Assembly (NCBI GenBank): GCA_001800605.1
Contig: MGVS01000037.1
Span: 1 to 33,087, forward strand
Origin: Elusimicrobia bacterium RIFOXYD2_FULL_34_15
GTDB lineage: Bacteria > Elusimicrobiota > UBA8919
Reading direction: 5' to 3'
Length of the DNA stretch: 33,087 nt
A program made the position numbers and the translations under genes. The notes below the pieces were generated by a model, which was not told the origin of the DNA, did not search any database, and saw only the letters and a program-made list of their open reading frames with translations. Below, in pieces: positions 1,765 through 31,419 of the stretch (the first letter of the stretch is position 1; each line of letters begins with the position of its first letter).

Positions 1765-1868
1765 CAGTACACAGTAAACTGTACACAGAATACAGTTTAA
1801 AAAGAAGGCGTTTTTGATTTTAGCTGTATCCTGTGTGCTGTATTCTGTGAGCTGTATCCTGTGTACTG
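1765..1868 (+). repeat. Two opposed degenerate heptamer arrays forming a long inverted repeat in the trpG leader
   Basis: cagtacacag (1765-1774) pairs perfectly with ctgtgtactg (1859-1868); cacagaatacag (1784-1795) pairs perfectly with ctgtattctgtg (1838-1849). Right arm reads ctgtatc-ctgtgtg-ctgtatt-ctgtgag-ctgtatc-ctgtgta-ctg (period 7). Confidence 0.85.
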
Positions 1869-8104: not shown

Positions 8105-10603
8105 ATGTCATATGATTCCAAAACTATAGAACAAAAATGGCAGAAATACTGGGAAGAAAATAATCTTTTTAGATCCGGCGAAAAATCCGACAAAAAGAAG
8201 TTTTATCTGCTTGAAATGTTTCCGTATCCTTCTGGTAAACTTCATATGGGGCACGCCAGAAACTATGCAATCGGCGATACACTTGCTAGATTCCTCAGAA
8301 TGAATGATTACAATCTTTTATACCCGATGGGTTATGATGCATTCGGACTTCCTGCTGAGAATGCTGCAATAAAAAACAAAATTAATCCTGAAAAATGGAC
8401 TGACGAATGTATTAACACTATGAAGGAACAGCAGAAAAAATTAGGTCTTTCATACGACTGGAATCGCCTTGTTGTAACAGCAAAACCTGAATATTATAAA
8501 TGGAATCAGTGGATTTTTACCAAGTTTTTTGAAAAAGGGCTTGCATTTAAAAAACAGGCACCCACAAATTTTTGTCCCAAAGACCAGACGGTTCTAGCAA
8601 ATGAGCAGGTTATTGACGGAAAATGCTGGAGATGTCAAACAGAAGTTGAAGTAAAAGATCTTGAACAGTGGTTCTATAAAATTACCGATTATGCCGAAGA
8701 ACTATTAAAAGATATTGAAAAATTAACAGGCTGGCCTGAAAGAGTAAGAATCATGCAGCATAACTGGATCGGTAAATCCGATGGACTCTCGGTAAATTTT
8801 CCTGTAAAAAACTCGGATAAAAATATTGAAATTTTCACAACCCGGCCAGATACTCTTTTTGGCGTAACATTCATGACTTTTGCAGCGGAACATCCGCTCG
8901 TTATGGAATTAGTAAAAGGCACTGAAAAAGAAAAAGAAATAAAAGATTTCGTAAATAAAATTGTTATCCAAAAAAGAATTACACGGCTAGAAGAAAAAGA
9001 AAAAGAAGGGATATTTACCGGAAAATATGCAATCAACCCATTGACCGGCGATGAAATCCCTATATATGTCGGCAACTTTGTCTTAATGGAATATGGAACC
9101 GGAGCAATAATGTGCGTACCGGCCCATGACCAGCGAGACTTTGAATTTGCCAAGAAATATAATATCCCAATAAAAGAAGTCATCCAGCCCTTCGACTCCG
9201 CTCAGGGCAAGCCGCTATCCGCTGCTTTTGTCGAAGAAGGTACCATGGTCAATTCTCAGCAATTTAACGGTATTAATTCCAAAGATGCCATAGCAAAAAT
9301 CTCTGTTTATATTGAAGAAAAAAAATTTGGAAAAAGAGTTATACATTATAAATTGCGTGACTGGCTTATATCACGCCAACGGTACTGGGGAACTCCAATA
9401 CCGATAATTTACTGCGAAAAATGCGGGACAGTACCTGTACCTGAAAAAGACTTACCGGTATTACTGCCTAAAGATGTGGAATTTACCGGTGAAGGTAATC
9501 CTCTTTCAAAATCTTCAAGTTTTGTGAGTTGTAAATGCCCAAAATGCAACGCTCCGGCACGTCGTGAAACAGATACCATGGACACATTTGTTGATTCTTC
9601 ATGGTACTTCGAAAGATATTGCGATCCTAAGCAGGACAAGCTTCCTTTTAGCAAGGAAAAAGTATCTTACTGGATGCCGGTCAACCAATATATCGGCGGA
9701 ATAGAACACGCTGTTTTGCACCTTCTATATTCCAGATTCTACACGAAAGCATTGCGCGATTTAGGACTATTAAATTATGACGAACCTTTTCAAAATCTTT
9801 TATGTCAGGGGATGGTTGTAAAAGACGGTTTCAAAATGTCTAAATCTAAAGGAAACGTTGTCTCTGTAGATGATATGATAGATAAATATGGAGCAGACAC
9901 CGCCCGTTTATTTATTCTTTTTGCATCTCCGCCTGAACGCGACCTTGAATGGTCTGATGAAGGTGTCTTAGGCTGTTACAGATTTGTCAACAAAATCTGG
10001 AATTTGGTACAAGGGATACAGCAATTAAAAATTAAAAAACCTGTCCTGAACTTGTCGAAGGATGAAAAATTATCCGCCACTGAACCGTTTGCGGATCCGC
10101 CTAACACCAGTGGCGGAAAAAACTTGGAACGCATAAGAAATCTTACTATAAAAAAAGTTACGATAGATATCCAGAAAGAATTTCATTTCAATACTGCAAT
10201 TGCTTCTATAATGGAATTCTATAACGAACTTACCGCTAAACAATCTTCTGTAGATTACGAAACTTTTAAAATAAGCCTTGAGACGCTTATAATTCTACTG
10301 AGTCCTTTTGCACCGCATATTTGTGAAGAAATGTGGCAAGTTTTGGGACATAACGAGTCTATAATAAAGCAAAACTGGCCGAAATGGGATGAAGAGAAAC
10401 TTAAACAAAACGAAGTAACCATAGCTGTTCAAATTAATGGTAAATTACGCGGTCAAATAGATGTAAACATAGGATTATCTGAACAGGAAATTATGGAATT
10501 TGTCAAATCTAATGAAAAAATTCATAAATATATTATTAATAAAAAAATAATTAAAACTATCTATGTACCTCAAAAAATATTAAATATAGTAGTGGGAGGA
10601 TAG
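8105..10603 (+). CDS. leuS: Leucyl-tRNA synthetase
   Basis: 'YPSGKLHMGHARNY', 'DYNLLYPMGYDAFGLPAENAA', 'KMSKSKGN', 'NQYIGGIEHAVLHLLYSRF'. Confidence 0.97.
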   Translation: MSYDSKTIEQKWQKYWEENNLFRSGEKSDKKKFYLLEMFPYPSGKLHMGHARNYAIGDTLARFLRMNDYNLLYPMGYDAFGLPAENAAIKNKINPEKWTDECINTMKEQQKKLGLSYDWNRLVVTAKPEYYKWNQWIFTKFFEKGLAFKKQAPTNFCPKDQTVLANEQVIDGKCWRCQTEVEVKDLEQWFYKITDYAEELLKDIEKLTGWPERVRIMQHNWIGKSDGLSVNFPVKNSDKNIEIFTTRPDTLFGVTFMTFAAEHPLVMELVKGTEKEKEIKDFVNKIVIQKRITRLEEKEKEGIFTGKYAINPLTGDEIPIYVGNFVLMEYGTGAIMCVPAHDQRDFEFAKKYNIPIKEVIQPFDSAQGKPLSAAFVEEGTMVNSQQFNGINSKDAIAKISVYIEEKKFGKRVIHYKLRDWLISRQRYWGTPIPIIYCEKCGTVPVPEKDLPVLLPKDVEFTGEGNPLSKSSSFVSCKCPKCNAPARRETDTMDTFVDSSWYFERYCDPKQDKLPFSKEKVSYWMPVNQYIGGIEHAVLHLLYSRFYTKALRDLGLLNYDEPFQNLLCQGMVVKDGFKMSKSKGNVVSVDDMIDKYGADTARLFILFASPPERDLEWSDEGVLGCYRFVNKIWNLVQGIQQLKIKKPVLNLSKDEKLSATEPFADPPNTSGGKNLERIRNLTIKKVTIDIQKEFHFNTAIASIMEFYNELTAKQSSVDYETFKISLETLIILLSPFAPHICEEMWQVLGHNESIIKQNWPKWDEEKLKQNEVTIAVQINGKLRGQIDVNIGLSEQEIMEFVKSNEKIHKYIINKKIIKTIYVPQKILNIVVGG
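9188..9213 (+). repeat. In-frame repeat cccttcgactccgctcagggcaagcc within leuS (encodes PFDSAQGKP)
   Basis: GC-rich word, compositionally distinct from the gene, at a LeuS editing-domain loop where homologues differ. Confidence 0.6.
10040..10117 (+). repeat. In-frame composite repeat in leuS: cctgtcctgaacttgtcgaagga plus a 45-bp palindromic element
   Basis: 10073-10117 tccgccactg...gcggatccgc...cagtggcgga (45 nt), homologous to elements at 30532-30578 and 26636-26685. Confidence 0.75.
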
Positions 10604-10604
10604 T

Positions 10605-11357
10605 ATGATAAATATTTGCCGTAAAGCAGTTTCTAAGTTGTTTAAATCTTTCTTATCTTTTACCAAGCCTGTCCTGCCGCCTATGGCGAGCCTCGCCCCT
10701 TTGGGGCGGGGGCGTGCGAAAATAGTCGAAGGATTACCCATTACTCGTTACTCGTTACCCGTTACCCATCACCCGTTACTGTCGTTCGTTACCCGTTACT
10801 CGTTACCCAGCCTGTCCCGATTCTTCGGGATTACTTTATTATTTTTTATCGGTTGTGCATCCCCGTATAAACCAACAACACAGGTACTTCCCCAGAATAT
10901 CAAAAAAGTTTCAATAGAAACTTTTAAAAACTCTACGGTATATTACGGCATTGAAGATAAACTTACTACAGCAGTTACAAACGAGTTTATACGTGACGGG
11001 CGGCTCGCCGTTGTAAATCCCGACGAAGCAGACGGTGTTTTATTTGGCGAAATAACAAGATATGTTTTGGAACCATTGACATATGACGAGAACCATGTTG
11101 TTAAAGAATATAAACTTTGGATATTGGTCAATATTTCTCTTATAGATAAAGCAAGAAAAGTTGTATTGTGGCAGGAAAAAAATCTTGAGGGCAATTACAG
11201 ATTTTTTATCGCAAATTTACCCGGAGGAACTACGGAAGAAGAAGCCAGGGAAATAATTTGGGATAAGCTATCCAGAAATATTTTAAAAAGAACAATTGAA
11301 GGCTTTGGCGCCGTCTCGGGTATAAGTGAAAAAAAAGTCCCGCCTAAAACGGAATAA
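10605..11357 (+). CDS. lptE: LPS-assembly lipoprotein LptE-like, N-terminus interrupted by repeat DNA
   Basis: Lipobox 'LLFFIGCASP', 'VSIETFKNSTVYYGIEDKLTTAVTNEFIRDGRL'; leuS-lptE-holA synteny; SD 'gggagga'. Confidence 0.75.
   Translation: MINICRKAVSKLFKSFLSFTKPVLPPMASLAPLGRGRAKIVEGLPITRYSLPVTHHPLLSFVTRYSLPSLSRFFGITLLFFIGCASPYKPTTQVLPQNIKKVSIETFKNSTVYYGIEDKLTTAVTNEFIRDGRLAVVNPDEADGVLFGEITRYVLEPLTYDENHVVKEYKLWILVNISLIDKARKVVLWQEKNLEGNYRFFIANLPGGTTEEEAREIIWDKLSRNILKRTIEGFGAVSGISEKKVPPKTE
10664..10832 (+). repeat. Composite in-frame repeat insertion in lptE with a cgttacc heptamer array
   Basis: cgcccc-ttt-ggggcg hairpin, 'agtcgaagga', then cgttact/cgttacc/cgttacc/catcacc/cgttact... (about 10733-10808), then tgtcccgattcttcgggatta palindrome. 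Confidence 0.8.
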
Positions 11358-11368
11358 CCTCATAAGAA

Positions 11369-11396
11369 TAACGAGTAACGGGTAATGGGTAACGAA
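11369..11396 (+). repeat. Heptamer array gtaacgg/gtaatgg, opposite orientation to the array in lptE
   Basis: aacgagtaacgggtaatgggtaacgaag. Confidence 0.8.
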
Positions 11397-11420: not shown

Positions 11421-11453
11421 ATTCTGTATACTGAGTACTGTATCCTGAATCCT
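11421..11453 (+). repeat. Heptamer array upstream of holA
   Basis: ctgtata-ctgagta-ctgtatc-ctgaatc-ct, period 7, ending 10 bp before the holA ATG. Confidence 0.8.
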
Positions 11454-12772: not shown

Positions 12773-14340
12773 GCGAAAATTTTAAAAAAGAATCTAAAGT
12801 AACAAAATATATCGGCTATGTTCTAACCGGAACAATGTTTTCCCGTATACTTGGCTATCTTCGCGATATGCTGGTCGGTTGGCTTTTCGGTGCCGGACTG
12901 TATGCCGATGCATTTTATGCCGCCCAGAGAATTCCTAATCTTTTCAGGCGTTTATTAGGCGAAGGCTCATTATCCTCGTCTTTTGTACCTGTATTTACCG
13001 ATTATATATCTACAAAAGATGAAGAAGAATCCAAAAAGCTTTTTAGTGTGGTTTTCACAACTCTTCTCTTTACTCTTTTGGTTGTAACTCTAATAGGTAT
13101 TGTCTTCGCTCCGCAGTTAACTAGAATTATTGCGTATGGATTTGAAAAAAATCCCGACAAACTTGCATTAACCATATCTTTAACACGTCTTATGTTTCCG
13201 GCTTTGCTTTTTGCGTGTATAGCAGCATTTCTTCTTGCTGTACTAAACTCTCTTAAATCGTTTTTTATACCCGCAGTATCTCCTGCTGTACTTTCCGTTG
13301 CCGAAATTGTTTTCATTCTTGGTATCGCCCGGTTTATTTTAAAAGAAAGTCAAATTAAAGGTTTAGCAATAGCGGTATTGGTCGGCGGATTATTACAATT
13401 CTTAATTATGATGCCATCAATTAAGAAACATGGGTTTTCGTTTAAACCAATTTTGAACTTTAATCATCCGGGACTTAAACAAATATTTTATTTAATGATA
13501 CCGGCAATGTGGGGAATATCTATTGACCAGGTAAATGCTTTTATTGATACAATATTTGCTTCCTTTCTAAAAGAAGGCAGTGTAACTGCACTTTATTATT
13601 CGAACCGGGTGATGCAGCTTCCGCTTGCTCTTTTCGGCATTGCTGTGGCTTCAGTATCATTACCTTTAATGTCAGCAAGTGTTTCCAAAAAAAATATAGA
13701 TGATATGAAAGATATGCTTGCATTTTCAATTAAAATATCATCGCTTGCTATTTTTCCTTCACTTATGGGATTAATAATTCTTGGTAAACCAATGATAAAA
13801 CTTCTATTCGAACATGGAAGATTTGATTCCAATGCAACTTTAATTACAAATTCTGCATTATTTTTTTATGCTTTAGGCCTGCCGGCGTTTGGATATGTAA
13901 AAATTTTTGCCGGAGGGTTTTATTCACTTAAAGAAACTAGAATTCCTGTGAAAGTCGCTACATTATGCATGATAACAAATGTTTTTCTAAATGCGATACT
14001 AATGCGTCCTTTAGGTGTAGGCGGACTTGCACTTGCAACTTCGATATCGTCATGGCTTAATGCTTCTCTTCTTTATATGTTTCTTAGAAAAAGAATCGGA
14101 AGTTTTGGAAGCAGAAAAATATTTTTCTCGCTTGTAAAAATAACTGTTGCTACTTTGACAATGGGTTTAGTATGTTATATTTTGTCTAATTATGTTTTCA
14201 GCAGCTTGGCATTAAATGTATTCGGAACGATAATTATAAGTTTTCTAACATATTTATTTATGACAAAGTTATTAAAAATTAAAGAAATGAAATCGGTTAT
14301 GTCTGTTTTAAAAAGGGAAGAACCAACCATAGATGAATGA
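12766..14340 (+). CDS. murJ: Lipid II flippase MurJ (MviN family)
   Basis: 'GTMFSRILGYLRDMLVGWLFGAGLYADAFYAAQRIPNLFRRLLGEGSLSSSFVPVFTDY'. Confidence 0.95.
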   Translation: MSSENFKKESKVTKYIGYVLTGTMFSRILGYLRDMLVGWLFGAGLYADAFYAAQRIPNLFRRLLGEGSLSSSFVPVFTDYISTKDEEESKKLFSVVFTTLLFTLLVVTLIGIVFAPQLTRIIAYGFEKNPDKLALTISLTRLMFPALLFACIAAFLLAVLNSLKSFFIPAVSPAVLSVAEIVFILGIARFILKESQIKGLAIAVLVGGLLQFLIMMPSIKKHGFSFKPILNFNHPGLKQIFYLMIPAMWGISIDQVNAFIDTIFASFLKEGSVTALYYSNRVMQLPLALFGIAVASVSLPLMSASVSKKNIDDMKDMLAFSIKISSLAIFPSLMGLIILGKPMIKLLFEHGRFDSNATLITNSALFFYALGLPAFGYVKIFAGGFYSLKETRIPVKVATLCMITNVFLNAILMRPLGVGGLALATSISSWLNASLLYMFLRKRIGSFGSRKIFFSLVKITVATLTMGLVCYILSNYVFSSLALNVFGTIIISFLTYLFMTKLLKIKEMKSVMSVLKREEPTIDE

Positions 14341-16348
14341 TTTTTTAAACCAAAAGTTGAAAAACTTGCCAAACCATCCCGGTGTCTATATAATGCGAGA
14401 CGCTTCAAGTAAAATAATATACATTGGTAAAGCAACATCCCTAAAATCCCGCGTAAAATCATACTTTGTTGAAAACATAAAAGATTTCAAAAATACATTT
14501 CTTGTAAAAACAGTCAGAAACATAGAATATATTCTTACAGAAAATGAGAAAGAAGCTTCTATCCTTGAAGAAGCTCTAATAAAACGTTTTCAACCGAAAT
14601 ATAACATAATCTGGAAAGACGACAAACGATATCCGTACATTAAAATCGGAAAAGAAAAATTTCCTGCGATAGAAGTAGTACGTATAAAAAAATCTGACGG
14701 AGCTAAATATTTTGGTCCATATCCGGACTCCACAGATATGCAAAAAACACTAAAATTAGTTAAAAGGATTTTTGGTTTACGCCCTTGTCAATATAATTTA
14801 ACCAAAAGAAAAAAAGAATGTCTGTATTATTTTATAAATAAATGCCCTGCACCTTGCATTGGAAAAGCTAACGAAGAAGAATATGTAAATATGATAGACA
14901 AAGTAAAAATGTTCTTATCCGGCAAAAACAAAGAATTGTTAAGAGCTCTTGAAAAAGAAATGAACATTTCAAAAAAATATCTTGATTTTGAAAGCGCAGC
15001 TAAGTTAAGAAATATTATCTTTGCAATAAAAAACACTCTAACCCGCGTAAATTTCAAGGAAACAACTATTGATAACATATTAATGAATATTGATAGGGCT
15101 TCGTATATTTCAGATTTATCAAAATTGTTAAATTCTAATGTTAACCGGATTGAAGGTTTTGATATCTCCAATATTTCAGGAAAATTTGCGGTAGGTTCCC
15201 TGGTTGTATTCACAAACGGATTCCCTGATAAAAAAGAATACAGAAAATTTAAAATTAAAACTGTTAAAAAAATAGATGATTTTAAAATGATTTTTGAAGT
15301 TATTAACCGACGTTACTCCGGTACTCTTGTTAAAAAGACTCCTATGCCGGATATGATACTTATAGACGGCGGAAAAGGCCAGCTTTCCTCCGCGATATCA
15401 GCATTGGAAAAAATTCCAAACATAGAAAAAATGCCTAAGGTTATTTCAATTGCCAAAAAAAATGAGGAATTGTTTGTTACGGGAAATCCTAAACCAATAA
15501 TTTTATCTAAAAATTCTTTAGCTTTAAACCTTATAAAACATATAAGGGATGAAGCCCATAGATTTGCAATATCATACCATAAACTACTGAGAAAAAATCT
15601 TTTCATAGCTTTTATAATATTTATTTCTACATTACAGCTCTTTTCAAAAGAAGGCACAATTTATCTAAAAAATGGAAAAACAATTGCAGGAGATATTACC
15701 AAGCTCGAGAACGGAAATTTACTGGTTGAAGTTAATAATTGCGGGATGGAATTTACAAACAAAGAAATAAAAAATATTGCGTATTCCAAAAACAAAGAAC
15801 AAAAAGAAGAAAACTTTTTACAAAAAATGAAAAACACTCAGAAGGCACAAGTTAAAGAAAAAATAAGAAATAGAAGATATGCATATGACCCCTTAATATA
15901 CACTTATGCAGATAAATACGGATTGGATCCGTCTTTTGTAAAAGCAGTTATAGAAGCAGAATCAAATTTTAATCAAGATGATGTTTCTTGGAAAGGGGCT
16001 ATAGGTTTAATGCAACTTATGCCTAAAACTGCAAAACAAATGAAGCTTAATCCAAACAATATAGAAGATAACATCAAAGGCGGCACACAATATTTGAATT
16101 ATATGTTATTGGAATTCGGAGATCCATCACTTGCACTTGCCGGTTACAATGCCGGTCCATATGCTGTAAAAAAATACGGCAACCAAATACCGCCATACAA
16201 GGAAACCAAAAATTATGTTGATACAGTCTTAAGAAATTATATAAAACATAAGCGGGATAAACAACTCTGGTATTTTGTTGATGAAAAGGGCTGCATTAAA
16301 ATCTCCGACAAACCAAAAGATAGAAGGTATAAGAGAGTTGAGAAGTGA
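14333..16348 (+). CDS. Chimeric ORF: UvrC-like excinuclease (GIY-YIG, UVR, RNase H-like) fused to an SLT-type lytic transglycosylase
   Basis: N-term 'LPNHPGVYIMRDASSKIIYIGKATSLKSRVKSYF' and 'EGFDISNISG...MILIDGGKGQLSSA...HIRDEAHRFAISYHK' (UvrC). From about 15587, 'LRKNLFIAFIIFISTLQLFS' (signal peptide-like), then 'YADKYGLDPSFVKAVIEAESNFNQDDVSWKGAIGLMQLMPKTA...AGYNAGPYAV' (SLT). Confidence 0.85.
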   Translation: MNDFLNQKLKNLPNHPGVYIMRDASSKIIYIGKATSLKSRVKSYFVENIKDFKNTFLVKTVRNIEYILTENEKEASILEEALIKRFQPKYNIIWKDDKRYPYIKIGKEKFPAIEVVRIKKSDGAKYFGPYPDSTDMQKTLKLVKRIFGLRPCQYNLTKRKKECLYYFINKCPAPCIGKANEEEYVNMIDKVKMFLSGKNKELLRALEKEMNISKKYLDFESAAKLRNIIFAIKNTLTRVNFKETTIDNILMNIDRASYISDLSKLLNSNVNRIEGFDISNISGKFAVGSLVVFTNGFPDKKEYRKFKIKTVKKIDDFKMIFEVINRRYSGTLVKKTPMPDMILIDGGKGQLSSAISALEKIPNIEKMPKVISIAKKNEELFVTGNPKPIILSKNSLALNLIKHIRDEAHRFAISYHKLLRKNLFIAFIIFISTLQLFSKEGTIYLKNGKTIAGDITKLENGNLLVEVNNCGMEFTNKEIKNIAYSKNKEQKEENFLQKMKNTQKAQVKEKIRNRRYAYDPLIYTYADKYGLDPSFVKAVIEAESNFNQDDVSWKGAIGLMQLMPKTAKQMKLNPNNIEDNIKGGTQYLNYMLLEFGDPSLALAGYNAGPYAVKKYGNQIPPYKETKNYVDTVLRNYIKHKRDKQLWYFVDEKGCIKISDKPKDRRYKRVEK

Positions 16349-16349
16349 C

Positions 16350-16382
16350 AAGTTAAAATTGAAAGTTAAAAGTTAAAATTAA
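16350..16382 (+). repeat. Heptamer-like array (agttaaa/aagttaa)
   Basis: aagttaaaattgaaagttaaaagttaaaatta, immediately upstream of the methyltransferase ATG. Confidence 0.55.
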
Positions 16383-16767: not shown

Positions 16768-16808
16768 TATTGGTGGTAAATAATTTAACAATTCAAGGGA
16801 GAATATCT

Positions 16809-19800
16809 ATGCCAAAAATAATTCTTAAAAAAATTCTAAAGCGTATTCGGTTTGCACTTATTATCATCCTATTTTCTAATTCTCTTTTTGCTTACTGGTT
16901 CTCAACAAAACTTACTCCAAGTACCGGCGATTTTAACGAAGGTAAGTGGGCTAAAATTTATATCAGAGGAAATTCTATTCAAATAGGTTACCAGCAGGAT
17001 ACAGGGGCAACCACATCTGTGCGCGTATTTAATGCAACTTTACCGACAGAATCTTGGAGCGATACCCAAATTGATTCAATTGTATCTAATATAGATTTTG
17101 GCAAATACATCGGTATTTGTGAGAATACAAATAATATCAAATATATCGTATATCAGGACAGTGCTTCAGTAGCAAATATGCCATCTCTTAAATGGAGCCA
17201 AAATACTGCTTCAGTATGGGATGCTCCAACTTTTTTGGATGGAGCTGCCCAACTCGGTGAAAATTGCGGAGATTTTGCATCTATCTCTGTTTACTCAACT
17301 AATTATCCTTGGGTAACATATTATAAAAAAGATAATACTCCCATTTATATGTTGAGATATGCAAGATACAATGGTGCCGGATGGTCAACAGGTAATACAA
17401 GTTCTTCTCTAGGTAATCTTCTTTATTTAGACAATACAGTTGATACTGATAATAAAATGCATATTGCTTGCTCTCCTATATCTTCAAATGTAATTAAATA
17501 TTTCTACGGTGATAATACTTCTTTTTCAATTTCAAATGAAACAGTAAGTTCCAACCAAATCAAACACACAGCAATTGCGATTGATACAAGCAACCTTCCT
17601 TATATAGTCTATTATGATTTGTTCGATAAATTAAAATGTGCAAAAAGAGTTTCCGGAACTTGGGTATCAAAAGATGTTGCTACTATAAATTATTCCGGTG
17701 TATCGGCATCTTTTACTGATAGATGTGCTATAGCAATAGCATCAGGCGTTATTCATATCGCTTATCATGACGGTAATAATGCATTTAAATATGCAAGAGC
17801 TACAATACCTTCAGACTGGAATAATGTTACATTTACTAATTCTTCCATAGATTCTTCTTCTGTCGGACAATATTGTTCAATGGCACTTTATGGCGACACT
17901 CCATACATAAGTTTTTATTCAACCGGTACAGGCGGCGGAGATTTAAAATATATCAGACTGGTTAACACTGCACAAACATTAAGCTGGACTACGGAAACAA
18001 ATTATTCTTCGGACGGTATTGACCCTGAAACCGGAAGTTTATCCGACAATTTTACCTATCGTGTTAAATATACTGACGCCGATAATGATGCTCCCGCAAG
18101 CGGATATCCGAAAGTATACATATTAAAAACAGGTTCTAATATTACAGGCAGTCCGTTTACAATGACTGCAGTAGATTCAAATGCATTCACTATTGGCAGA
18201 GTTTATACATATTCAAAAACGCTTGATACATTAGGTACAGATTACACTTATTACTTTGAAGCACCAGATCCAATCGGCTCACCTGCAACCGGAAATGCAA
18301 CCGGTATCACTGATAGTCCGGATGTGTCTAATACTACGCCAACTCTTACATGGACAGGGGAAACAAATTATACTTCAGATGGCATTAATCCTGAATCCGG
18401 CGGTATAATCAGTACTTTTACCTATCGCGTTACATATACCGACGCTGATAATGATGCTCCCGCAAGCGGTTATCCCAAATTATATATTAAAAAAACCGGC
18501 GTTAATATTTCAGGCAGTCCATTTACCATGACAGAAGCAGATTCAAATGCATACTCTTCAGGTAGGGTTTATACTTATCAAAAATTACTCGGTATAAATG
18601 GAACAGATTACACTTACTATTTTCAAGCATTGGATATTTATAATTCTACTGCAACAGGAACTCCAATCAACAGCGTTGACAATCCGGACGTTATTAATAC
18701 ATCTCCAACGATTACATGGACAGATGAAGCCAATTATGACGCCGGCGGTGTTTATCCTTTAAGTGCAACATCCACAAATACTTTTACATATCGCGTTACA
18801 TACACCGATGCGGATAATAATGCACCTTTAGCAGGTTATCCTAAGGTAAATATTCAAAGAAATTATTCAGGTATTTTAGGAAGCCCGTTTACTATGAGTG
18901 CGGCAGATCCAAGCGACACAAATTATACAGATGGTAAAATTTATACTTCAACACACACACTTGATACAGTCGGGGCAACTTATATATATTCATTTTCAGC
19001 ACAAGATTCAAATAGTGCTACTGCAACCGGTGAAGCAAGCAATACTACTGTCTATAATCCGCAAGTAATAGCAAGCAACCTAGCACCAACACTTTCATGG
19101 ACTGCAGAATTGGGTTATACTTCTGACGGTCTTGCCCCTGAATCCGGTACATCAACAAACACTTTTACTTATCGTGTTCAATACACCGATCCTGACAATA
19201 ACCCACCACTAAACGGTTATCCCAAAGTATATATAAAAAAAGGCGGAATAAATATAGTAGGCAGTCCATTTTCTATGAGTTATGTAGATTCTTCTGATTC
19301 AAATTATCTTGACGGCAAATTCTATTATTACCAAGAATCTTTTGATACTGCGGGAACCGATTATACATATTCGTTTGAAGCATTCGACTCAAACAGTTCT
19401 CAGGCATCAGGAATATCAACAGGTACTGTAGATGCACCGGATATAACCGGTAATAGCGCACCTACGCTTACATGGGTAGGGGATCAAAATTATATTTCCA
19501 GCGGACTTTATCCTGAAACAGGTACATCAACAAATAGTTACACCTATCGTGTTCTATATACCGATGTCGATGATGACCCTCCTGCAAATGGTTATCCTAA
19601 ATTATATATTAAAAAAGCTGGAGTAAACATAACTAACAGTCCATTTACCATGACTTATGTGGATTATTCTGATTCTATTTATTCTGACGGACGGGTCTAT
19701 AAATATCCTCCAAATTCCGATGATACAGTATTGATTGAAAACGCAACTGATTATATATATTATTTTGTAGCACAAGATGCGTATAGCAATTCGGCTATTG

Positions 19801-21650
19801 GCATTGCGACATGCACAGTTGATGCACCGGATATAACAGCATCCGGTTCTGGAAGCCAAGCTCCGACACTTACATGGAGTAACGAACCAAATTATGTATC
19901 TGATTGTATAAATCCTGATACCGGAGATACTTCAACTTCTTTTGTTTATCACGTTAAATATACTGATTCTAATAATGATGCCCCGTTGAATGGATACCCG
20001 CTTTTATATATATTAGATAATGGTACAAATATTTCCGGTAGTCCGTTTCTAATGACTGCTGCAGATTTTAATTCGTATTCTTCAGGTAGAATTTATTCTT
20101 ACACTAAAACCCTTACTGCAGGCGCAAATTACTCCTATTATATGACAGCATATGATATAAATATCACTGAAGCAACAGGAATTATGACAGCTGCTGTATC
20201 AGGACCAACAGTAACCGGTGCAAGCTCAACACCCGGCACAATCAGCGGTAGTGTAGTTCAGACAGGTCTCTTAACAGGAATACAAGGTGTAAGTGTTACA
20301 GCTTACCAGGGAACAACTACATTGGGTAACACATCCAGTGATGGAACCGGGAACTTTTTACTTTCTTTGTCTGCCGGTATATATGACCTTGTTTTTTCGC
20401 ATACGGGTCATCTAACACAAATAAGGTTAGGCGTAACGGTAACCAGCGGTCAAAATACTACATTAGTGGACGTTGCATTACATACCGAAAGCTCTACACA
20501 AAATCTTTCCTGGACACCAAGGTCAAATATGTCCGTAGCAAGAGTTGGGTTGGTTGCTGCAGCACTAAACAATAAAATTTATGCTATCGGCGGTAATAAT
20601 GGTACCAGCACTTTAATGGATATAGAAGAATTTGATCCTGTGTTAAATACTTGGACTGCAAAATCAAATATGCCCCAAGCAAGAGATTGGTCCGCAGTCG
20701 GAGTAGTTAACAATAAAATATATGTAATCGGCGGCGGTGGCGGCGGTTTTTATGGCTCAGTTTTTGAATATGATCCCAACGGAAACCCATGGTCAATAAA
20801 AACACCTATGTTTACCGCAAGGTCTAAATGTGCAGCAGGAGTAGTTAATAATAAAATATATGTAATAGGCGGCACGAATACTGGTAGTTTTACGCCTCTA
20901 AACACTGTTGAAGAATACAACCCAGTATCTGATACATGGACAAGCAAAGCAAACATGCCTACTGCAAGATATGGTGTTGCGGTTGCAGTTGTTAATAATA
21001 AAATCTATGCTATTGGCGGTGCAAGAGGAAGCAATAATACTGATAGAGTTCCTTACACAGAAGAATATGACCCAATTAGTGACACATGGACATCAAAAGC
21101 AAGTGCCCCTACTGCAAGAAGTGAACATAGTGCAGTTGTATTAAATAATAAAATATATGTTCTGGGTGAATCTGATGCTATTCAGGAATATAATCCATTA
21201 ACAAATGCATGGACAACAAAAACCAACGTAACAGGAGAACTTCATAGAGGCGGTTCCGGTGCTGCGGTCGTTAATAATAAGCTATATTTTGTAGGCGGGT
21301 ATAGCACAGGCAGATATCTGTCATCTGTTTTTGAAGCCAGTATTTCCGAATCAATCGGTCCAGGTTATAGCGAAAACATTGAAAATGCTTTTTGCTATCC
21401 TGTACCTGCAAGATTATCTAACGGTGACACTATAAAATTTGCAAGTTTTACACCATACGCTACTGTTAAAATTTTATCAACTGCGGGAGAAATATTAAAA
21501 GAATTTACAGCTGATTCAAATGGCAACATTCAACCATGGGATGGTGAAACAGATAGCAACGGAAGAATTGGTACTGGAGTTTATATAGTTCATGCTAAAG
21601 AACAATCAACTGATGGATTAAAGAAATTTAAAATAATAATAATAAAGTAA
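16809..21650 (+). CDS. Large exported modular protein: propeller-like N-terminus, six Ig-like repeats, carboxypeptidase-regulatory-like domain, Kelch repeats, FlgD-like C-terminal domain
   Basis: Signal peptide-like N-terminus; six 'LTWTGETNYTSDGINPE...YRVTYTDADNDAPASGYPKLYI' units; 'GSVVQTGLLTGIQGVSVTAYQG'; six 'NNKIYAIGG' Kelch motifs; C-term 'ENAFCYPVPARLSNGDTIKFAS...PWDGETDSNGRIGTGVYIVHAKE'. SD 'aaggga' supports ATG 16809. Confidence 0.88.
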   Translation: MPKIILKKILKRIRFALIIILFSNSLFAYWFSTKLTPSTGDFNEGKWAKIYIRGNSIQIGYQQDTGATTSVRVFNATLPTESWSDTQIDSIVSNIDFGKYIGICENTNNIKYIVYQDSASVANMPSLKWSQNTASVWDAPTFLDGAAQLGENCGDFASISVYSTNYPWVTYYKKDNTPIYMLRYARYNGAGWSTGNTSSSLGNLLYLDNTVDTDNKMHIACSPISSNVIKYFYGDNTSFSISNETVSSNQIKHTAIAIDTSNLPYIVYYDLFDKLKCAKRVSGTWVSKDVATINYSGVSASFTDRCAIAIASGVIHIAYHDGNNAFKYARATIPSDWNNVTFTNSSIDSSSVGQYCSMALYGDTPYISFYSTGTGGGDLKYIRLVNTAQTLSWTTETNYSSDGIDPETGSLSDNFTYRVKYTDADNDAPASGYPKVYILKTGSNITGSPFTMTAVDSNAFTIGRVYTYSKTLDTLGTDYTYYFEAPDPIGSPATGNATGITDSPDVSNTTPTLTWTGETNYTSDGINPESGGIISTFTYRVTYTDADNDAPASGYPKLYIKKTGVNISGSPFTMTEADSNAYSSGRVYTYQKLLGINGTDYTYYFQALDIYNSTATGTPINSVDNPDVINTSPTITWTDEANYDAGGVYPLSATSTNTFTYRVTYTDADNNAPLAGYPKVNIQRNYSGILGSPFTMSAADPSDTNYTDGKIYTSTHTLDTVGATYIYSFSAQDSNSATATGEASNTTVYNPQVIASNLAPTLSWTAELGYTSDGLAPESGTSTNTFTYRVQYTDPDNNPPLNGYPKVYIKKGGINIVGSPFSMSYVDSSDSNYLDGKFYYYQESFDTAGTDYTYSFEAFDSNSSQASGISTGTVDAPDITGNSAPTLTWVGDQNYISSGLYPETGTSTNSYTYRVLYTDVDDDPPANGYPKLYIKKAGVNITNSPFTMTYVDYSDSIYSDGRVYKYPPNSDDTVLIENATDYIYYFVAQDAYSNSAIGIATCTVDAPDITASGSGSQAPTLTWSNEPNYVSDCINPDTGDTSTSFVYHVKYTDSNNDAPLNGYPLLYILDNGTNISGSPFLMTAADFNSYSSGRIYSYTKTLTAGANYSYYMTAYDINITEATGIMTAAVSGPTVTGASSTPGTISGSVVQTGLLTGIQGVSVTAYQGTTTLGNTSSDGTGNFLLSLSAGIYDLVFSHTGHLTQIRLGVTVTSGQNTTLVDVALHTESSTQNLSWTPRSNMSVARVGLVAAALNNKIYAIGGNNGTSTLMDIEEFDPVLNTWTAKSNMPQARDWSAVGVVNNKIYVIGGGGGGFYGSVFEYDPNGNPWSIKTPMFTARSKCAAGVVNNKIYVIGGTNTGSFTPLNTVEEYNPVSDTWTSKANMPTARYGVAVAVVNNKIYAIGGARGSNNTDRVPYTEEYDPISDTWTSKASAPTARSEHSAVVLNNKIYVLGESDAIQEYNPLTNAWTTKTNVTGELHRGGSGAAVVNNKLYFVGGYSTGRYLSSVFEASISESIGPGYSENIENAFCYPVPARLSNGDTIKFASFTPYATVKILSTAGEILKEFTADSNGNIQPWDGETDSNGRIGTGVYIVHAKEQSTDGLKKFKIIIIK
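17979..20215 (+). repeat. Six tandem Ig-like coding repeats of about 360-400 bp
   Basis: Units start near 17979, 18346, 18711, 19090, 19466 and 19868, each beginning (L/I)(S/T)W and containing 'YRVxYTDxDNxxPxxGYPK'. Confidence 0.85.
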
Positions 21651-26579: not shown

Positions 26580-26608
26580 AGTAACGGGTAACGGGTAATG
26601 AGTAAGGG
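26580..26608 (+). repeat. Heptamer array gtaacgg (cgttacc family)
   Basis: agtaacgggtaacgggtaatgagtaaggg. Confidence 0.8.
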
Positions 26609-29874: not shown

Positions 29875-29880
29875 TTGTAT

Positions 29881-31419
29881 ATGAAAAAAATATTTTTATG
29901 TTTATTATCGTCGTTACTCCTTCTTTTATCTTTTCCTAAAATATCATTTTGGCCATTAGCATGGATTTCACTTGTACCTCTCTTATCAGTAATATCAAAT
30001 GAAAAACCTTTAAAAGCATTTCTATACGGAATTTTAACAGGAATTGTTTTTTATTGCGGAATTTTATATTGGATAGTTCCAACTTTTTCTGCCGCCGGCG
30101 AACCAAATATTATCGGCATTCTTGTTCTCCTTTTATTGGCAATATATTCAGCATTATATTATGGAATTTTCTGTCTGTTCTATTCTAAAAACTTCAAACA
30201 CAGTTTGATACTGCCGGCTTTCTTATGGGTTTCTTTAGAACTTATTCGCACTCATTTATTCTCAGGTTTTCCGTGGGCATCATTGGGATATTCCCAATGG
30301 AATTTCTTACCTATAATACAGATTTCCGAATTCACAGGCGTATATGGAGTATCTTTTTTAATAATATTGGTGAATGTTATATTAGTACACAGTATACAGT
30401 ATACAGTATACAGTTTAAAAGATATAGGAAACAAGACACAGCACACTAGATTCAGGATTCAGAATAATATTACAACAGCATTAATTGTTCTTTTTTGTTT
30501 AGGATTTGGTGCCATTAAACTCTATAACCCTTCCGCCACTACTTCTTTGGCGGACCCGCCAACAACTCAGTGGCGGGATAACCCAAGAATTGTCACAATT
30601 GTTCAAGGTAATATTGACCAATATAAAAAATGGGATGAAAAATATCAACAAGAAATCGAAAACATTTATTCCGAGCTTTCCGTTTCGAACTCAAAAAATT
30701 CAGATTTAATAGTTTGGCCGGAATCTTCAATACCTGGATTTTTAAGAATCGATCCAAAAATCTATAACTGGATCAAAGAACTCGCAAATAAAACTAAAAC
30801 ACAGTATTTAGTATCCTCAAATGATTTTAAAGACAATAAATATTATAATTCTGCATTTCTAATATCCAAGCAAGGCGAAGTTATTGGTGAATATTCAAAA
30901 GTCCATCTTGTCCCATTTGGAGAATATGTACCTTTAAGAAAAACAATTAGTAAATTTATTAAAGTAATTAATGAAATAGGTGAATTTGCTCCCGGAGAAA
31001 AATATAATGCTCTTGATTCTTCTGCAGGCAAACTTGGAGTGAATATCTGTTTTGAATCTATATTTCCAAATGAAATTAGAAAATCAATAAATTCAGGAGC
31101 AGAAATCATTGTTAATGTAACAAATGACGCATGGTATCTTAAAACATCCGCACCTTACCAGCACTTTACAATGAACATTTTTAGGGCTGTAGAAAATAGA
31201 AGGGAAGTAGTAAGAGCTGCAAATACCGGAATCTCAGGCTTTATTGATTCTTATGGTAGAATAAAATCAAAAACTGAAATATTCAGAACTGCAGCACTAT
31301 CGGATAAAATAATACCATTAAATCATATTACCTTTTATACAAAATATGGTGATATTTTTTCTTATTTATGCCTGTCAATAACAATATTATTTCTTATCAT
31401 ATTTTTCTTCAAACCTTAA
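29881..31419 (+). CDS. lnt: Apolipoprotein N-acyltransferase
   Basis: 'LSFPKISFWPLAWISLVPLL', 'SGFPWASLGYSQW', nitrilase-domain motifs 'WPESSIPG', 'SKVHLVPFGEYVPLR', 'NICFESIFP'. ATG at 29881 preferred over TTG 29875. Confidence 0.92.
   Translation: MKKIFLCLLSSLLLLLSFPKISFWPLAWISLVPLLSVISNEKPLKAFLYGILTGIVFYCGILYWIVPTFSAAGEPNIIGILVLLLLAIYSALYYGIFCLFYSKNFKHSLILPAFLWVSLELIRTHLFSGFPWASLGYSQWNFLPIIQISEFTGVYGVSFLIILVNVILVHSIQYTVYSLKDIGNKTQHTRFRIQNNITTALIVLFCLGFGAIKLYNPSATTSLADPPTTQWRDNPRIVTIVQGNIDQYKKWDEKYQQEIENIYSELSVSNSKNSDLIVWPESSIPGFLRIDPKIYNWIKELANKTKTQYLVSSNDFKDNKYYNSAFLISKQGEVIGEYSKVHLVPFGEYVPLRKTISKFIKVINEIGEFAPGEKYNALDSSAGKLGVNICFESIFPNEIRKSINSGAEIIVNVTNDAWYLKTSAPYQHFTMNIFRAVENRREVVRAANTGISGFIDSYGRIKSKTEIFRTAALSDKIIPLNHITFYTKYGDIFSYLCLSITILFLIIFFFKP
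30384..30466 (+). repeat. In-frame cagtata heptamer array inside lnt
   Basis: agtaca-cagtata-cagtata-cagtata-cagttt (30384-30416), then acacagc-acactag-attcagg-attcaga (about 30435-30466). Confidence 0.85.
30532..30578 (+). repeat. In-frame palindromic element inside lnt
   Basis: tccgccactacttctttggcggacccgccaacaactcagtggcggga, same architecture as the leuS 45-bp element. Confidence 0.8.

Follow-up and report, generated by a model that had tools for sequence, protein, structure and literature searches.

The gene for apolipoprotein N-acyltransferase (lnt) in Elusimicrobia bacterium RIFOXYD2_FULL_34_15 contains a tandem array of heptamers that is translated in frame within the linker between the two conserved domains of the enzyme. 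We consider it probable that this array is a vertically inherited member of a repeat family, CAGTAYA, lying in a permissive part of the protein where it likely serves as passive filler, and that the process responsible has operated across two families of the phylum. The array was studied within the window, by which we mean the whole 33,087-nucleotide stretch of contig MGVS01000037.1, and against other genomes of the phylum, all of which are apparently metagenome assemblies (one of them, G003, with an estimated contamination of 7%); genes were taken as the longest open reading frames (ORFs). Placement of the window genome in Elusimicrobiota agrees with its SecA, whose best named matches are Elusimicrobiales at ~61%. 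The earlier note on this DNA treated the lnt array as a single case of insertion into one gene. The insertion itself is upheld, but the pattern turned out to be lineage-wide, and lnt is one case of many.

The array in lnt and its inheritance

Several lines of evidence identify the protein as Lnt. Specifically, the profile LNT_N matches residues 12–168 and CN_hydrolase residues 240–464, the match to TIGR00546 lies far above cut-off, and the motifs WPES (281), YSKVHLVPFGE (340) and ICFES (391) are kept. Comparison with a solved Lnt shows that the sequence surrounding the known catalytic positions is likewise intact. The frame is open across the array, which is translated between the LNT_N and nitrilase domains, and the earlier note was thus right that a real heptamer array lies inside lnt with the frame kept. 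Analysis of the first array with TRF gives 4.4 copies of AGTATAC at 95%, and the units of the second, degenerate array read CACAG, CACACTA, GATTCAG and GATTCAG (Table 1). The two arms in lnt are direct and not inverted, and a spacer of the TTTAAAAG type is also found 3′ of many other CAGTAYA-family arrays. The gene carries, in addition, a GC-rich palindromic element of which there are 22 copies in the window genome with at most three mismatches and which is also present in the lnt of G001, a genome of the same genus. Hence two kinds of non-coding repeat, the array and the palindromic element, are both in frame in one gene.

Comparison with homologues bears directly on whether the array was added to a shorter protein. 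Measured from GVYG to the nitrilase motif, the Lnt linker is 89 amino acids long in the window, 79 in G001 (10 fewer), 69 in an array-free relative of the same order (G008) and 62–63 in G036 and G052, so that the array-free relatives have linkers 20–27 amino acids shorter than that of the window. Similarly, 67 residues lie between the aligned domains of the window's Lnt and 38 in the solved chain. The earlier note had proposed an alignment of homologues for an insertion at this position, with repeat-free homologues of equal length as the contrary outcome; the alignment was run, and homologues without repeats are shorter. The stretch in the linker is an insertion.

The first lnt array is common to the window genome and G001, and it therefore predates the split of the two species. 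It consists of four units in both, although those of G001 are diverged (CACAG, CAAGCAG, GTTACAG and GATACAG), and its last three units are identical in the window genome and differ in G001. This difference reflects either decay in G001 or homogenization in the window genome, and the three identical TATACAG units of the window set against the diverged units of G001 could be the product of recent local homogenization. As a separate observation, the position of the window's heptamer array is occupied in the Lnt of G007 (L021) by an insertion, CHPETEAKGLKSKDRILRFAQND, that is MITE-like and in frame.

Table 1. Repeat arrays and related features of the window, with their state in the same-genus genome G001 where given
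Feature	Position	Strand	Sequence and remarks
CAGTAYA-family inverted pair upstream of trpG	1768..1865	+	left arm GCAGTACACAG..., right arm ...CTGTGTACTG
LeuRS loop with palindromic-repeat insertion	9185..9220	+	QPFDSAQGKPLS
TTACYCR array between palindromic elements, 5′ part of lptE-like ORF	10734..10809	+	
GTAAYGR array just 3′ of the lptE-like stop codon, upstream of holA	11364..11394	+	absent from G001
CTGTRYN (CAGTAYA-family) array upstream of holA	11424..11444	+	absent from G001
AAGTTAA array	16350..16382	+	G001 version ~12 nt shorter
GTAAYGR array upstream of secA	26580..26608	+	CAG-type heptamers there in G001
lnt (apolipoprotein N-acyltransferase) ORF	29875..31419	+	TTG at 29875, ATG at 29881; intact
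First heptamer arm in lnt, CAGTAYA family	30384..30413	+	AGTACACAG(TATACAG)x3; peptide HSIQYTVYS
Spacer	30414..30436	+	TTTAAAAGATATAGGAAACAAGA
Second array in lnt, degenerate, direct orientation	30437..30462	+	CACAGCACACTAGATTCAGGATTCAG; absent from G001
Second dispersed repeat in lnt, GC-rich palindromic element	30533..30578	+	CCGCCACTACTTCTTTGGCGGACCCGCC...; in frame as SATTSLADPPT

The entire window aligns to a single contig of G001. At the trpG site, G001 has an unrelated hairpin in place of the window's inverted pair, and at the lptE-like gene ~150 nt of the window's insertion are missing. The earlier note had placed one and the same word family in the intergenic DNA upstream of trpG, holA and secA. 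This is correct for trpG and for one of the two arrays upstream of holA (11424–11444), but the other holA array (11364–11394) and the secA array belong to a different family, GTAAYGR/TTACYCR. Its broader claim, that a non-coding repeat has become protein sequence, stands, as a dispersed and mostly non-coding family supplies part of Lnt.

Three other ORFs of the window deserve mention in their own right. The lptE-like lipoprotein (10605–10860) has a long N-terminal extension, made up of palindromic elements and the TTACYCR array, ahead of its hydrophobic core and lipobox, and its G001 orthologue is without this extension. A 671-residue ORF (14333–16348) joins a UvrC-like N-terminus to a lytic-transglycosylase-like C-terminus and is possibly a fusion, a frameshift or an assembly join. 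An ORF of 1626 residues (16770–21650) contains 366-nt internal tandem repeats (found by TRF) and Kelch-like repeats, and probably encodes a surface protein.

Repeat words across genomes and in core enzymes

The CAGTAYA word is confined phylogenetically. Tandem matches to CAGTRYA number 35 in the window genome, 7 in G001 and 0 in the other 59 phylum genomes searched, and among these genomes the family is dispersed in the window's genus only. For the second word family, TTACYCR/GTAAYGR, there are 248 tandem matches in the window genome, 5 in G001 and a handful in further genomes of the same taxonomic family; further words in the window genome are AAGTTAA, AATTAAA, CTAATTA and two octamers. In array-bearing genomes, periods of 7 and 8 exceed every other period in the range 4–21. 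Within a 276-kb sample of the window genome that is unbiased with respect to the repeat (another set of its contigs was picked for holding the word), there are 31 period-7 arrays versus 0 in Markov simulations, and 24 of these 31 are intergenic, in a genome where intergenic sequence makes up ~10% of the DNA. This preference is absent in G003 and G011, where about half or more of the arrays are within ORFs. Palindromic elements, namely CCTTCGACAAGCTCAGGACAGGC, CCCGATNNATCGGGA and CCGCC..GGCGGG, were seen nested in GTAAYGR arrays (L087:6978-7055, L093:1600-1710, L048:16086), with the array resuming beyond them.

Arrays of 7- or 8-mers occur in frame in many conserved enzymes of two families, that of the window (f1) and that of G011 (f5). 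Enzyme names were read from conserved motifs, with homology checks for Lnt, HisF and LeuRS. Across f1 and f5, Lnt has 18 arrays in 7 of 8 genes (none in 19 genes elsewhere in the comparison), LeuRS has 14 in 6 of 7 genes (none in 8 genes of other families) and HisF has 9 in 7 of 8 genes (none in 4 genes of other families), whereas codon-shuffled controls for these three enzymes predict between 0 and 0.15 arrays. Our literature searches, whose scope did not extend to subscription papers, yielded no account of heptamer arrays lying in frame in genes of this phylum, which is weak evidence of absence.

In all three enzymes, related species reuse the loop positions but fill them with different repeated words. 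For example, the loop that lies between AIDAK and WEVYTYG in HisF contains a CAGTAYA array in the window genome, an array of the CTAATTA type in G001, four copies of GTCCGAA in G002, and four copies of GTCCGAA plus four of CTTCCAA in G004. Likewise, the LeuRS loop that follows PIKEVI holds 7- or 8-mer arrays with differing words in G003, G004, G005, G007 and G011. The Lnt of G005 contains four arrays built from four different words, and that of G011 contains five arrays.

Change, spread and origin of the arrays

Changes in copy number within coding sequence can be followed in two genomes of one genus, G004 and G007. Their hisF genes are exactly 21 nt apart in each of two arrays, with a single GTCCGAA and a single CTTCCAA in G007 and four of each in G004, which amounts to three units per array and keeps the frame. 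At one and the same Lnt site, one of these genomes has CTTACCA and the other the octamer GAACATCG, and a LeuRS site is occupied by an octamer in one of the two genomes and by a heptamer in the second. Copy number does change, then, but in the one clear case the differences that have survived in coding sequence are multiples of three units; whole words, too, are replaced.

That a change of one heptamer shifts the reading frame, since seven is not a multiple of three, is correct arithmetic on the part of the earlier note, and three identical adjacent units do occur in lnt. It is nonetheless very improbable that lnt is a phase-variation (contingency) locus in which heptamer slippage toggles Lnt on and off, and the suggestion of the note to this effect found no support. 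The array comprises about four units and is not a long, homogeneous, slippage-prone tract; moreover, the orthologous first array of G001 has the same number. Median array length is 4.1 units in coding DNA (n=33) and 3.9 in intergenic DNA (n=74), and none of these 107 measured arrays exceeds 6.4 units, an upper edge that, unlike the lower one, is not fixed by the detection threshold. In the two word families compared in the window genome, a unit resembles its neighbor no more than it resembles one drawn at random from the pool of the whole genome (0.167 versus 0.252 expected for GTAAYGR, and 0.114 versus 0.122 for CAGTAYA), which argues against recent slippage in both, although the arrays of G003–G005 look more homogeneous and local amplification may act there. 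Loss of mismatch repair is rejected as a factor, as MutS (MutS_I) is present in 21 of 21 genomes. Furthermore, the HisF change preserved the frame, and Lnt belongs to the core enzymes and is no surface antigen.

The account that we favor starts with a CAGTAYA array that would have lodged in the permissive Lnt linker before the two sampled species of the genus split. Whichever frame it is read in, a stop-free heptamer array yields one and the same heptapeptide, which makes the peptide independent of the frame of insertion; CAGTAYA is stop-free on either strand. Such a peptide may be tolerated wherever a loop tolerates the added length, with purifying selection expected to remove any change in length not divisible by three. 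Judging from this tolerance, the lnt array most likely acts as passive filler. The same process may have brought 7- and 8-mer arrays of about four units into the loops of many housekeeping enzymes across both families, with words turning over fast between species while loop positions recur. We infer that they recur because few surface loops tolerate insertions, just as we infer the array's lack of function; reuse of a position with new words could alternatively reflect selection for an array at that site. One observation is not explained by passive insertion alone: CAG lies on the coding strand in 6 of 6 in-ORF CAGTAYA arrays of the sample, and likewise in the HisF array.

It is also worth considering how the arrays might have formed if dispersal were not primary. 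A chance heptamer could be amplified where it stands by slippage or template switching (in coding sequence, three units at once), with the sharing of words secondary and due to gene conversion. The HisF arrays fit such a local origin, with one copy of GTCCGAA and of CTTCCAA in G007 against four of each in G004, at +21 nt each, except that this change is unpolarized and may be a gain or a loss; also in keeping with it are genes of G003, G004 and G005 in which each site has a different word and the units of each array are near-identical. However, genus-specific words that are common to tens to hundreds of loci need dispersal, arrays of the window genome mix units, and MutS is present. We regard a local origin as a serious possibility but a somewhat doubtful one. 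It seems unlikely, in turn, that the arrays are arms of non-autonomous REP/MITE-like hairpin elements mobilized by a Y1 (RAYT-type) transposase, even though some CAGTAYA-family arrays are paired in inverted orientation around loops of 19–31 nt, 12 of the 49 intergenic arrays are accompanied, at a distance of up to 150 nt, by a good inverted partner (against 4–13% in controls), and Y1_Tnp genes are found in 9 of 9 array-bearing genomes of f1 and f5. Most intergenic arrays are without an inverted partner, and hairpins thus form a subset; the notion of the arrays as obligatory hairpins is rejected because such partners occur in a minority only. In addition, Y1_Tnp is also found in G036 and G040, two genomes in which the DNA sampled is free of 7- and 8-mer arrays. 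Arrays lie near one of the four Y1 loci read in the window genome, without directly flanking it, so that the REP/REPIN-RAYT arrangement of a Y1 gene flanked by repeat copies was not found there, and target-site duplication was not established.

The intergenic arrays raise a different possibility, that selection favors them at gene ends as regulatory signals in RNA or DNA, the copies in coding sequence being by-products. Of 35 intergenic TTACYCR arrays, 29 are flanked by co-directional genes and have GTAAYGR on the coding strand, and arrays so oriented mostly lie ~25 nt or less from the upstream stop codon; furthermore, G001 retains a hairpin at the trpG site, although with a different sequence. 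Yet several arrays (those at lptE and holA) are missing from the syntenic G001, and because no reading frame of sense GTAAYGR is free of stops, the bias may owe something to the survivorship of arrays close to gene ends. We doubt that regulation accounts for the arrays. Arrays templated by reverse transcriptase, including those of a diversity-generating retroelement, are rejected for the window genome, which has no match to PF00078; nor was a match found in G001, G003, G004, G006 or G007. One might also imagine a dedicated, length-limited process that writes and rewrites arrays of about four 7- or 8-nt units from a genome-wide pool of variants, although we give this idea little credence. If true, it would act at gene ends and in permissive loops, with positions persisting and words being replaced, and it would be neither ordinary slippage, nor templating by reverse transcriptase, nor simple transposition of one element.

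Comparison with known repeats

Dispersed heptameric repeats have been known for decades, mostly as intergenic curiosities, and their origin is not agreed upon. With tandem 7-nt units beyond chance and dispersal throughout the genome, the arrays described here are heptameric repeats of the STRR/LSSR type. They share a preference for four units and proximity to stop codons with the GGGAATC and GGGGA(C/T)T heptamers of Xanthomonas and Nostoc, in which the four-unit preference has been linked to G-quadruplexes and which are under-represented in coding DNA (PMC4692102). In contrast to those, many words are found together here, many of them (such as CAGTAYA, AAGTTAA and CTTCTCA) without G-tracts; there are octamers as well, and insertions into the coding sequence of core enzymes are common. 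The lnt array itself does not have the four G-tracts of the GGGAATC class, its word CAGTATA having none, which suggests that the shared features probably arise from array formation and not from quadruplexes. The TAACTGA direct repeats of Beggiatoaceae, Cyanobacteria and Bacteroidetes are similar in being dispersed heptamers in 2–6 direct copies that are mostly intergenic and sometimes translated (PMC4679880). They differ in that a single fixed word is found mainly just 5′ of start codons and, where it is translated, mostly sits at the ends of proteins or belongs to hypothetical ones (PMC4679880), whereas the arrays here occupy internal loops of conserved enzymes and their words vary by species.

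The Rickettsia palindromic elements offer the closest match for entry into coding sequence, as they too are dispersed non-coding repeats found in frame in many unrelated metabolic genes (PMC10969869). Those elements are palindromes of ~150 bp that encode a conserved peptide (PMC10969869); the arrays are 25–45-nt tandems with inverted arms in some only, and their words and peptides vary by site and species. By analogy, the phenomenon may be seen as combining known heptameric repeats with a colonization of coding sequence like that of the Rickettsia elements. The lnt array also resembles the short-unit contingency loci of host-adapted pathogens in being a coding tandem whose unit is not a multiple of three, but it has few units, is distant from the 5′ end, lies in a core enzyme and is without sign of frequent length change.

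In the present case, core enzymes carry in-frame arrays at loop sites that can be reused, and synteny allows comparison between species. Two questions thereby become testable: how arrays of about four short units spread when they have neither long slippage tracts nor sequence that forms G-quadruplexes, and how frequently protein loops gain new sequence from non-coding repeats. In metagenomes, gene callers and structure predictors that meet array peptides may take them for domains or errors.

Related designs were noticed in other genomes. G002 (L109, L110, L111 and L112) has many intergenic octamer arrays of TTATAGGG/TTATAGAG in inverted pairs, an octamer counterpart of the heptamer hairpins. 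Arrays of 7-mers are also found at low density in contigs of Atribacteria, Desulfobacterales and others, and one Desulfobacterales contig (L157:8112-8195), from a distant phylum, shows the same design, with two heptamer arrays in inverted orientation on either side of a short loop.
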